Shown here one piece after another: positions 20,957-53,500 of a DNA stretch of 64,000 nt (the first letter of the stretch is position 1; each line of letters begins with the position of its first letter). The DNA is from Tubulanus polymorphus. Lineage: Eukaryota > Nemertea > Palaeonemertea > Tubulaniformes > Tubulanidae. The stretch is taken from the NCBI RefSeq assembly GCF_964204645.1, contig NC_134027.1, forward strand, positions 8,296,485-8,360,484, given 5' to 3'. A program made the position numbers and the translations under genes. The notes beneath the pieces were generated by a model. The model was not told the origin of the DNA. It searched no databases and saw nothing but the letters and a program-made list of their open reading frames with translations.

Positions 20957-20962
20957 TTTATT
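20957..20962 (-). terminator. Candidate polyadenylation signal of the 138-residue gene
   Basis: TTTATT on the plus strand reads AATAAA on the minus strand, 186 bp beyond the stop codon of the gene at 21148-21928. Confidence 0.4.
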
Positions 20963-21147
20963 TTTTAGAAAAACAATGTACTGGTAGTGTTTGTTTATGT
21001 CAGATTTTAATCATATTTACAGCTTTTGCACAGGTATGTAGCACACATCAGAAAACACTACTAATCGAATCTTATATACCAGTTACTAATATATACACGA
21101 AATGATCATCAACTGTCTATTATATGAAATGCATGTTTCTTTTCTTT

Positions 21148-21928
21148 TCACAATTGACGGTCAATTTGCTGGTGGACCATGGCAAACTGATGATTGGAGA
21201 CGTTCACTTCAGATTCTGTATTCACGTGCGGCAAGTCGTCATTATGCACATCAACCGAGGTCTCTACCTTCACGATTTGACTCAGCAACAGTTTCATATG
21301 ATTTCGTAACTCTCGAATGTATTCCGTGAAACGAAACAACGTTGTCTCCAAGGCAGCCTTTTTAACGTGTAACTGTAACAGGTGAACAATGTGGCCGCGC
21401 CTCTCAGCTATTACCATTCTACTGCCTAATCTCATTAATTCGGTTCCTGTGAAATAAAATAAGGACATTGATGATACTAAACTGGAAACAGTATTCATAA
21501 AAAAGCTGCAGCTTAATCGTCATAAAGAAGTTACGGTATGGATAAGCCTAAATCCCATTATATGCAGAATTTAAGAAATCTGATGATCTGTAGTGAGAGT
21601 TTGAAACGTTGTGTATTTTGATTTCAATTAACTTCACAATCATTATTCTAATGTAAATTTGAATGAAATACTCATTTTCAAAATACAGCGTAAAGAAGAG
21701 CAACTCAGTCATGGACATATGAACTACAGTTTATACATCCATGGCATTACCATATGTATGTGATATTTGACATAAAAAATTTTTTTTTTGATAATGTCTT
21801 TTTCACTTACCTATTACATTCAGTTGTTCAATTGCTTTATTATGTTTCTCCAATAATTTTCCCAAGAAGAAAACCATTGGTAGATCTACTGCTGAGAGTT
21901 CAGTGTCCTGATACGATGCACTATCCAT
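21148..21928 (-). CDS. Unrecognised 138-residue helical protein, two exons
   Basis: Exons on the minus strand: 21811-21928 (ATG at 21928) and 21148-21446 (TGA). The donor AATAG|GTAAGTG and acceptor TTCACAG|GAACC join the exons in phase at a glycine codon. An in-frame TGA lies 45 bases upstream of the ATG, which supports this start if no further 5' exon exists. The protein begins MDSASYQDTELSAVDLP. It then has FFLGKLLEKHNKAIEQLN and a second helical stretch with ERRGHIVHLLQLHVKKAALE and RELRNHMKLLLSQI, rich in Leu, Lys, Glu and His; this suggests helices, probably coiled coil. A polar Asn/Val/Asp tail follows. No signal peptide or membrane segment is evident. I do not recognise the family; a small complex subunit (kinetochore, meiotic or cytoskeletal) would be a guess. 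It lies tail-ward of GINS3 on the same strand. Confidence 0.68.
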
Positions 21929-22562
21929 ATTTGACGGTCTTTCTATGTTGTATAAGCAGAGATCTATCGGTCAAGTGTCCTGTGGCTATCATCTACACAA
22001 ACTAGATATTCTTCCGATAGTGTACCTTTATTTATGACAGTATTTAGTTATTTAGGCATCAAAACAATTGGCATAAACCACTGCATCATATCTGGTTGGC
22101 TGGTTAATATAAATGAACCACTAATTGATGTTACAAATATCTTGTAAGCACCAAATGTAATGTAGGGGAACAGAGTTTAATTCAAAGAGAAAACAATTCT
22201 AATCAACTCCGTTAATTGCCTGGGTCAGCGAAGGATGAAAGTTTTAGTGCAAGCTCCTCAATCCAGCTAATTCTTCAATTCAAGCAAATATAATAGAACA
22301 ATCATCCTTAGCCATATCATTCATTATATAGATGATGTTATCAAAACCATTAATGAAAAAGACACATCTTAGTTTTACATATATTAAAATAAATATATTT
22401 ATCTCATTTTATACAAAAATTGTACAAATTTGTATGTACATATATACAAGTCGATTGTATTTACACTAGTATATTACAAATTTAAGCACACTAATAAACC
22501 AATATATTATTTTAGAAATATATTATGACTATACAATCAGTGTGTGTGAATAACAAGGAGTT
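21929..22562. other. AT-rich spacer between the 138-residue gene and GINS3
   Basis: Very AT-rich. It holds no exon I can support. It should contain the GINS3 3' UTR and the promoter of the downstream minus-strand gene. A minus-strand AATAAA (TTTATT on plus) is at 22027-22032. Confidence 0.5.
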
Positions 22563-24685
22563 TCAAGAGTTCTCATTATTGACGCGTTTTCGTTTACGAA
22601 ATCTAGAAACCATGTGCGACGTATCGAGTTTTTCCGTTTCTCGTGTTTCCCATCGTTTGAAATCTTTCAGTCCTAACTGTCCGTATTTGTAAATGACTTT
22701 TTCGAGTTCGTCTAATTTCGACATGATTTTCGCGCCGTCTTCGAAGTACGCGTTTTGCGAACAGTCCATTATACGTCGAAATCGGCCCTGAAATGTCTGA
22801 AAAAAAAATCAATGAAAATTTAAACGATGCATTAGTTTCAGTCGTGATTTCTAAAAATAAACCATTATGATATTCAAAAACTTAATGAAAATCAATCCAC
22901 TCAAACAACCCAAAAATCAATCCAGAAGTATATCACCTGATATATCGTTCTAATTGAAACTGCTATTTCGAGAGACATTTTGGATTGAGACATTAGCTTC
23001 TAATATATTGTACACAATATATTGTATTTTTCTAACTTCTGACACATTGAATTGTTATTGCAAAACCTATTGTTTCATTCACAATTGTTGGTTCTGTGCA
23101 AAATGAATTTTACTAAGATATTTTCTATACAGCAGGATCCACTTAATTTGGATCATTCAGGACCAACAAAATAAATATGGATGAAAAGTAATTTTCTGGT
23201 ATATTAATGAACAAATGGACTACAAATATTTTCTGAATTAGAACAAGAAGCCGATCCGGATAAAGCGGGTTTGACTATACTTACTGTAAGTAACGTTTTC
23301 GCAATATCAGTAGATTCGGTGTGGCCAAAGCTAAGCAGCTGTGTTCCAAATGTATAGAAGTAAGGCCCCATTTTATGTAAATCGACGACATTCGGATCTG
23401 CTTGGTAAATATGTCTGTTACCTTCTCGATATTGTTTCGGTATTTCTATACTGACTATATGTCTTTTCCGACTGCACAAAGCTCGTGCAAGCCAATAAGG
23501 AAGCTCCAGTTTCGAATTAGCGCTCAAGTCTTCGCTGTCAGCACTCGGATCCAAGAAACCTGTCAAATGAGAAATCGGGTACGTTCATGTATGTTCAATT
23601 GTGAAAGGGAAGATTATTTTTGGCAAAAAAAGCCAAATATTGAAAAGTGTGATAAATTGAGAAGTCAGACAGACCCAGGCTAACTAACATAAAAAAGCAA
23701 AAGTGGTCTAGTACCTAGCCGTTGTTCCTGGAACCGTAACAACGACTGGAATTCAGACTAGAGGAAAAGGTGCTTTTTCAACAATAGGCTACATGAAAAG
23801 AATCAAGCAAAGAATCTGTATTTTAAATAATTTTGAATATCATATGATATTCAAAATTATATAAAATACAGATGGTGCCATGAAAACTTAAAACATTTTA
23901 ATTGGAGAAAAGAATTAATCATACAATCATTTATTGATTAAAATTTCATTTGATTTTGATTGACCACTAGTTACTGTCTATTTATTAATTGATGAGACCT
24001 GTTTTTCTTGGATATTTTGCTTACTTTTTGGGGTACATACCTCATTTATGTCTTAACAGAATGCCAAAAGTCGCGGACAACAACTGAATATCCGATATAT
24101 TTCCAGTTCTGTACCAATTAGATGGATTGGCAAAAAGACTCCTTAAGTCCAATTGAATGAGAGAGAAAATCCTCCATTTTGTGAAATTTCTTGAATTTTT
24201 ACATTGTCACCATGCCTACGAAATGAAGTTATTTTTCTTGTGGGGTCTCAACAACTAAATCAGGGTGGCGTAGGCATGGTAACAATGTTCAAATCCAAGA
24301 AATTTGACAAAATGGAGGATTTTCTCTCTCATTAAACTGGACTTAAGGAGTCTTTTTGCCAATCCATCTAATTGGTACAGAACTGGAAATATATCAGATA
24401 TTCAGTTGTTGTCCGCGATTTTTGGCATTCTGTTAAGACATAAATGAGGTATGTACCCCAAAAAGTAAGCAAAATATCCAAGAAAAACAGGTCTCATCAA
24501 TTAATAAATAGACATTAGTACACAGACAGTCACTGAGAAAGATGAAAAGTTTTTATCATACCTAAACGCTTAACTGGCGTAATAAACTTGCAAGGAATTC
24601 TTTCTTGCGATGATAATATATCATCTATACTGAAGTAATTTTCCCTGTAACCCGAACTGCGGTCATTCGATAGAGAATTAGACAT
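22563..24685 (-). CDS. GINS3: GINS complex subunit 3 (PSF3), complete, 3 exons
   Basis: Exons: 24562-24685 (ATG), 23285-23559, 22563-22796 (TGA). They join in phase to 210 residues; human PSF3 has 216. Diagnostic stretches are ENYFSIDDILSSQERIPCKF near the N-terminus, SKLELPYWLA, the almost invariant DPNVVDLHKMGPYFY, FGTQLLSFG, and TFQGRFRRIMDCSQNAY leading to a basic tail (SRFRKRKR). PSF3 is one of four GINS subunits. GINS joins MCM2-7 and CDC45 to form the replicative CMG helicase in the nucleus. The first intron (23560-24561) is unusual in holding a 60-bp palindrome and a foldback with 245-bp arms. The gene is head to head with AMFR. Confidence 0.96.
23814..23873. repeat. 60-bp near-perfect palindrome in GINS3 intron 1
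   Basis: Two 30-base arms beginning ATCTGTATTT meet at a central CATATG with no spacer. By eye there is one mismatched pair. It could extrude as a cruciform or fold as a hairpin in the intron RNA. Confidence 0.85.
23976..24513. repeat. Foldback element: two 245-bp inverted arms, 48-bp loop
   Basis: The left arm 23976-24220 is the reverse complement of the right arm 24269-24513, with about ten mismatches counted by eye and no obvious indels. The loop is 24221-24268. Outer ends are GTCTATTTATTAATTGATGA and its complement; inner ends are CATGCCTACG and CGTAGGCATG. No coding sequence is seen, so it is best read as a large foldback MITE or a recent inverted duplication. It lies wholly inside GINS3 intron 1 and would form a long duplex in the pre-mRNA. 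Confidence 0.9.
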
Positions 24686-50598: not shown

Positions 50599-53500
50599 TC
50601 AAACATCGCAAGTATCTCCATCATCCCCATCATCTAATAACACACAATCCGCCACGGGAATCTTCACTTGTTCATCAGATTCTACTTCTATATCAATCGG
50701 TTTATTGTTGTTTTCAGTAACATCTGCGGATCCTGCATCATTTTGTAGGTCAAATTCAGCACCTGCTGAATTAACATCGGATGAACTACTGTTGTCATCA
50801 TCGTCATCATCGTCGTCGGATGTTTCTTTTTTCTGTTCGGTATCTTGTGAAACTTCCTCAGGAATTTCTTTCACAGCGGATGGTTCCTCAGTAGATTCGG
50901 TAGGGATATTTGTTTCAACGCTAACAGCCACTACAGGCAATGAAGGAGTTATATTGGTGAGGGAATTGGATGATTTCATAGAATCGCTTCCATCTGCTGA
51001 AAAAAGATGACAATATATCAAAATATGAATGTCAATATTAAAGTTATTTTAAGATTTATCACTAACCAAAATGAGGTCGCAGTGAAGCTTAAAAATGAAG
51101 GAGCAATGGAAATGGGTTTTTTGACTACATACGTTTTGACCAGATTTTCACATGATCAGACTCGGTGTAGAATGTATAAATTAAAGTGATTTCATATTCC
51201 ATGCTATAGCAATATCTATTCCCAGTGTGTTTAGCTACTGAGAGAGTTTTCATGCTATGTATGAGTTTTGACAATGGATCTATTCCAGGTTGAACTAATA
51301 GTATTCTAAAATCTTCGAATGCAAGCACTAAACTGACTTAAAGAAGTAAAACATGGTGGATAGTGAAGTAAAACATCCTCGAAATAGTAAACCCAATAAT
51401 ACCAAGAAACGTAACTGATAAATTGACTACACCGCGTATCAAATAAAAAAAGAAATCTTAAAATTGTTATACCCATTTCTACCGGATTCATACATCATCA
51501 AAATATTGATGAAAATCTTTCTAAACGTAACAGAAATGTATACAGAAAAAAACATGATATAAACGATGCAATACTGAATTATCATTGGCTGGTAAACATA
51601 TAAAATGACGGTATACTTACTGATATCTATAGGAGTCATTCCTCGTGGTAGAGACTGTGACTTGTTCGTATTCTCAGTGTCAGAATCTGTGCCACTCAAT
51701 CGTCGTAAGCTATCGATGCGGTTCTTAACCGACAGACGATTTTCGTCTTTCTCGAGACTAGAATCCTTTCTGTTCTCGGCAGGACTCGATTCGCTACTCG
51801 AAGGTCGAGACTCTTTAGTCGCTATCGTCCTCAAGTCTTTGCTCAGCGTTGAATCTCTGCTGGCCGGTTGCGGAGTTGATTCTCGACTAGATTCCCGGCT
51901 AGCTATTACAGGACTCGATTCTTTACTCAGACGAGAACCTAAACAAAGTAATATCACATGGTACTGGTATTTCTTACATCAATACGTAATTTGTAATTGA
52001 AACACACAACTTTTTCAGAGCACATACCAGGCGGTGGTGGTTTCCTAGGTTTTGCCGATGCTATCGGTGGTTTCGGACGCGATGGAGGAGCTGGTTTAGC
52101 TACAGGATGAATCGAGAAATATGTTAAAATAATTACGATAACAACTGAATCAATTGTCTCGGCGTTCTGAAAGATCAGCTACATACTGGATGGTGGCGGT
52201 GCTGGCCCAGGTTTTTTCTCCGATGCTGAAAAAGCTCTTGACGCTCGCGGTGGCGCCTGTGGACTTTTATCCGGTCGCGGGGGAGGTGGTTTGTGTTTTT
52301 GGTCTGCTTTGTCGCCCTGAAATTGACAATACCATGTGGTCCTCGCCTGCGAAAAGAAATGCTTTCATGCAGCAAATGCTGGCGTTCTCTCTCTTGAAAC
52401 GAATGACACAGTTACTAACAGAAAGTGTAAGATATACAAAGAAAAGTAAAGAACAGATTCTTATCAGAACATTTAGCTAGCAAACAGATTTAGATTGACA
52501 GTTGTGAAGAAAGTTATGCTCAGACAAATTAAGCGTACAGTGTTATTTAAGAAGAGTTAAATAGGAAAATGAAATATACAATAATACAGTTGTCTCGTAC
52601 AAGAGATGGAAAGCAGTTCTTTACGGGTGAGTTTTACACAAGAAACTGAATATTCATGAAACAAAACCTGTTTTTCATAAATTACTTTGTGACAATTACA
52701 ACAAACAAAACATAAAACATAGTGCAAAGATATAAGAGACAACTTAGGGATACATTATTCATTAGTAATTAACCGAAAAGAAGATATGTTAAAACAAAGA
52801 TCTACTAACATTTGTTAACAATTCAGATATATTTTCCTTAGGCACTTACCTCAGAAGCCATTCCGGTTTGCTTCAGTTTCATTTCAGCAAAAATTCCAGA
52901 ATTGACACCAAAGCCAATTTTAGGAATACTTGCAGGCTGCCTCTTTACAACTGGTTCTTCTACTGTCACTTCTGACTGCACTTCAACTATAATGAAAGGG
53001 AAATGATATTCATTTGATATTCAACAGCGCAGCTTTCATCACTCAGAAGGAAAAGAAGCACTGCCATTTACCTTTTTCTTCAGTGTCAGGTTTCTCTTCA
53101 GGCTTTGTCTCTTCAGGTTCAGCCTTTGTTTCATTTTTTTTCTTGAAAAATTTCATCTTTCCAAATCCAAAGCCACTCCTAGAATTCACAATACACATTT
53201 TCGATAAAATGATGTAGTGTTTCACCCCATTGTACCGGAAGTGAGAGCAATATCGATGTACATACTTGCTTTCAGATTTTTCTTTTGATTTGTCATCAGA
53301 TTTTTCTGTGTCCTCCTTACGGTTGGTCAAATTATTCAAGAAACTCGGCTTTTTCGTTGATGTTTTCGGTCTGAAAAACATATAAATTCAAGTACCAATG
53401 CTAAGAGTCCGAAACAAAACACTCATTAAGCAGAAAAAAAAAGAAATCTCATTCTCGTAAATTTATCCTTAACCAACTATAAGTTTCTTTGCATCATCAT

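Follow-up and report, generated by a model that had tools for sequence, protein, structure and literature searches.

A probable gene for a small, largely helical protein in the nemertean Tubulanus polymorphus

The coiled-coil proteins of the synaptonemal complex can keep their length and coiled-coil layout but not their sequence (PMC8598163), and failure to detect homologues accounts for many lineage-specific genes (PMC7660931), such that a gene like the one described here may be a diverged orthologue of something already known. The gene lies on the minus strand of the 64,000-nucleotide stretch of the T. polymorphus genome that was analysed (hereafter the window), between positions 21928 and 21148. 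With a probability of roughly three in four, we take it to be a genuine single-copy gene with two coding exons for a soluble protein of 138 residues, which works by helix–helix binding within a larger complex. That the locus is a real small gene is very probable in its own right; given that it is real, there is a good likelihood that its product works by helix–helix binding, as a subunit or adaptor.

Two described proteins suggest themselves by eye as counterparts, namely TEX12 (PF15219) of the synaptonemal complex central element and the augmin subunit HAUS2 (PF15003). TEX12 is similar in size (123 residues against 138), shares a short disordered N-terminus followed by one long helix, and has a weak residue similarity with a score of 44, which 31 of 1000 pattern-preserving shuffles also reach. 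The 138-residue protein differs, however, in possessing an extra acidic tail. Moreover, the locus is not among the matches of a whole-genome profile search with PF15219, and hmmscan of the protein likewise returns no TEX12. The assignment was rejected, there being a better TEX12 candidate elsewhere in the genome. This likely orthologue is at G000:C5:2570543-2570644 on the minus strand, where the exon scores 56, a value reached in none of 1000 pattern-preserving shuffles, and where a nearby stretch of the locus, FDTLFSEYNAIKGFV, matches the next segment. The Pfam TEX12 model nearly misses this exon (15.6 bits, E 4.2), despite the clear alignment of its residues.

The resemblance to HAUS2 consists of a look-alike string (HIVHLLQL / YMVHLLEL) and of FFL near the start of the helix. 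Against this, the alignment score is 40 versus a mean of 35.2, and 100 of 500 shuffles reach it; HAUS2 was rejected on these shuffles and on the existence of a better locus. At that locus, the HAUS2 model matches two adjacent exons (G000:C4:23125946-23126571; best 22.2 bits, with a cut-off of 27), which read LEASYHRY and then YASELLPLVAPVISDLHTLID, look HAUS2-like and are likely to be the HAUS2 gene. A broader comparison, serving as a lead only, took in 28 small helical proteins of human origin. The best of this panel is again TEX12, at 2.4 s.d. (44 versus 30.7; 11 of 300 pattern-preserving shuffles), and nothing in it goes beyond what is expected for a panel of such a size.

An earlier note on this DNA had described two minus-strand exons with good donor and acceptor sites and an in-phase join, preceded by an in-frame stop and followed by an AATAAA, and all of these features are indeed present. 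Coding exon 1 (21811–21928) encodes MDSASYQDTELSAVDLPMVFFLGKLLEKHNKAIEQLNVI together with the first base of a Gly codon. Its start ATG (21928–21926) is in a strong context, TCAAATATGGA, with A at −3 and G at +4, and an in-frame TGA stands upstream at 21971–21973, within a stop-to-stop frame of 21970–21803. The phase 1 intron (21447–21810, 364 nt) runs GTAAGT...TTTCACAG. Its donor, TAG|GTAAGTGA, with 21810 as the first intron base, agrees with the consensus at eight of nine positions (TAG|GTAAGT), and its acceptor, TTATTTTATTTCACAG|GAA, with 21447 as the last intron base, has pyrimidines at 13 of 16 positions. Coding exon 2 (21148–21446) contains 98 complete codons and ends with the stop TGA at 21150–21148. 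The exons join in phase to give 417 nt, that is 138 residues and a stop codon, with MDSASYQDTELSAVDLPMVFFLGKLLEKHNKAIEQLNVIGTELMRLGSRMVIAERRGHIVHLLQLHVKKAALETTLFRFTEYIRELRNHMKLLLSQIVKVETSVDVHNDDLPHVNTESEVNVSNHQFAMVHQQIDRQL as the spliced product. The G+C content is 36% and 44% in exons 1 and 2, respectively, against 29% in the intron between them and 28% in the downstream flank. The AATAAA (20957–20962, minus strand), a possible polyadenylation signal 186 nt beyond the stop codon, is weak evidence alone, since by a hand estimate roughly one is expected per kilobase; a second motif, ATTAAA, is found at 21011.

The length of the exon 2 reading frame is not in itself evidence of coding, since by a hand estimate at 36% G+C about one frame that long is expected per 64 kb in six frames. 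Necessarily, therefore, the model was assessed as a whole. Models were counted that ran ATG–donor–acceptor–stop on either strand, with a donor of at least 8/9, an acceptor of at least 13/16 pyrimidines, an intron of 50–1000 nt and at least 138 codons, and the null was a first-order Markov chain in 4-kb blocks, resampled as 5000 windows. In 45 of the 5000 (~1%) there was a two-exon model of 138 residues or more under equal splice criteria, and in none did such a model reach the observed codon log-likelihood of 6.18 as well. An earlier resampling of 1000 windows gave eight with such a two-exon model, and the reversed and the complemented window have no model of this kind, even at 100 codons. The real window contains three: the 138-residue gene and two with a common first exon (53381–53071). 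The latter, of 151 and 152 residues at 53381–51956 on the minus strand, are the sole other place in the window that qualifies, and they are likely to represent a gene.

The 1994 codons used to train the codon model came from chaperonin exons across the genome and from the Pfam-supported exons of the window. Exon 1 scores +0.034 per codon in its predicted frame, the other five frames being negative; exon 2 scores +0.040 per codon, the best of six frames, with the +2 frame close behind at 0.034. Both values fall within the range of the known exons of the window (−0.04 to 0.11, leave-one-out). In other words, the two-exon model is beyond chance on splice, length and codon statistics, and the earlier note's proposal of a real gene is thereby backed.

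The gene is also unique. Across the 268-Mb genome, the protein matches solely its own two exons, on which basis a recent duplicate or a transposon gene was rejected, and the DNA of the locus is single copy apart from a dispersed repeat in the intron. The repeat copy (21542–21630, core 21582–21629) recurs at 42 other places in the genome with 76–94% identity. The repeat is some 48–90 bp long, and several copies occur as pairs in opposite orientation, separated by about 20 bp (C5:22872324/22872392, C2:9413602/9413674 and C3:9028233/9028303), in which respect it resembles a foldback or miniature inverted-repeat element. Unique exons around a repeat-bearing intron fit an intron that tolerates insertion.

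The encoded protein has an acidic N-terminal segment of ~16 residues, a long hydrophobic-rich, probably helical region of net positive charge (residues ~17–108) and then an acidic, flexible tail, in which VETSVDVHNDDLPHVNTESEVNVSNHQFAMVHQQIDR would be an example of a tryptic peptide. A single-sequence AlphaFold model of exon 2 alone gives one helix of ~67 residues (exon residues 2–68), with pLDDT of 90–98 over most of its length and a model pTM of 0.45, followed by a stretch of low confidence and then by another, short helix. Hydrophobic residues recur with a period near 3.4–3.5 over residues 17–105, a periodicity reached by 44 of 2000 shuffles. Over the whole helical stretch it is the period of 3.4 that is significant, the strict heptad period of 3.5 being absent; locally, a period of 3.45–3.5 is seen in residues 17–48 and 75–105. 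A regular coiled coil is accordingly only a candidate description of the protein, a strict heptad not extending over the whole helix.

Searches for relatives returned little, in keeping with the earlier note's view that the protein belongs to no recognisable family, which holds in Pfam, PDB sequences, Foldseek against the PDB, and the bacterial and viral collections. Pfam gives no credible family, its sole entry being DUF3158 (PF11358), below the cut-off (E 0.008, 16.2 bits against 27). This match is regarded as background, since the reversed sequence, used as a control, reaches similar scores with other families (Spectrin_7, E 0.011). Among PDB sequences there are just designed proteins, none of them credible (E 0.39–0.9), and a Foldseek search of the exon 2 model against the PDB finds nothing, even with E values as high as 10 admitted, a result of little weight for a single helix. 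Nor is there a relative in the viral contigs or in 84,980 prokaryote genomes, and a bacterial or viral origin of the gene was rejected on this basis. The collections searched were Pfam, PDB, bacterial and viral ones, without animal genomes, so absence from them says little; the gene may already stand in the annotation of the animal as an uncharacterised protein.

Neither a transmembrane nor a catalytic domain is recognisable in the 138 residues, and the protein therefore most likely works by binding. The predicted helix would probably continue into the part encoded by exon 1 and pack with other helices into a coiled coil or a bundle, and the protein, presumably expressed, could then act within a larger partner complex, either as a small subunit or as an adaptor. 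Proteins of this kind can drift in sequence whilst keeping their length and helical pattern, and this would account for the lack of a recognisable family. Such drift may be rapid here, the description ‘fast-evolving’ being drawn from the lack of matches.

How the gene should be labelled is a separate matter. There is about an even chance that its protein belongs to an already known family of small helical subunits (those of the kinetochore, mediator, augmin, BLOC/BORC or the synaptonemal complex are examples) but has diverged so strongly that profiles miss the orthologue; this is compatible with a subunit that binds through its helix and differs from it in label alone. In its favour, Pfam can nearly miss real orthologues in this genome, as with the likely TEX12 exon above, but the best of the panel is unremarkable among 28, and both TEX12 and HAUS2 have better candidates elsewhere. 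It is doubtful that the protein is instead a small helical subunit of some conserved cellular machine, either restricted to Spiralia or diverged in the extreme, and undescribed in any animal. Less likely still is a young, lineage-restricted gene recently born from non-coding DNA: shortness, single copy and the lack of detected relatives in the collections searched would fit such an origin, but that lack carries little weight where animal genomes are not included, the G+C content and codon use of exon 2 resemble those of established exons, and a long stable helix is predicted.

The least probable reading is a non-coding one, in which either the open frame and its good-looking splice sites arose by chance or the locus is a gene for a non-coding RNA. 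The reading frame is indeed of unremarkable length, and resampled windows do on occasion give a model as long, but none of them reaches the codon score, and the strong start context, the upstream stop, the single-copy unit and the change of G+C at the splice sites all argue for coding. A gene for a helix-binding protein is thus the reading retained here, and as such the finding is an ordinary one, of a common orphan-gene kind and not a new biological system, orphan genes of this sort being numerous in every animal genome. If real, it is one more small gene missed by profile libraries, and the locus illustrates how family models pass over small helical proteins even when an orthologue is present (cf. 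the 15.6 bits of the likely TEX12 exon).

The gene follows GINS3 on the minus strand, as the earlier note had placed it. The last coding stretches of GINS3 lie upstream at 22563–23584 (minus strand), as given by weak Pfam matches on the frame 23207–23584 (PSF3_N, E 5.7e-6, just under the cut-off; Sld5, E 0.14, below the cut-off); the last exon we take to be that of GINS3. Other neighbours in the window with Pfam matches, besides GINS3 (weak), are TBC1D32/BROMI, dynein light intermediate chain (DLIC) and VPS35, and AMFR and COX4 are presumably further ones. DLIC, GINS3 and VPS35, together with the presumed AMFR and COX4, fall within ~35 kb (9848–44129). The human counterparts of all five are on 16q, a shared placement that suggests ancient linkage.

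Two further loci in the genome were observed. At G000:C31:7097-8704, on a contig of 110 kb, there is an unbroken chaperonin frame of 575 codons, and this contig is possibly a bacterial associate or a contaminant in the assembly. Hox genes occupy G000:C6:5318228-5634756 and share a single strand; their homeodomains include Lox5-, Lox2/Lox4- and posterior-like ones. The motif KLNGP is present in one Lox5-like gene of the cluster and the motif IKELN in two that are Lox2/Lox4-like, Hox signatures by which the animal is most likely a lophotrochozoan.
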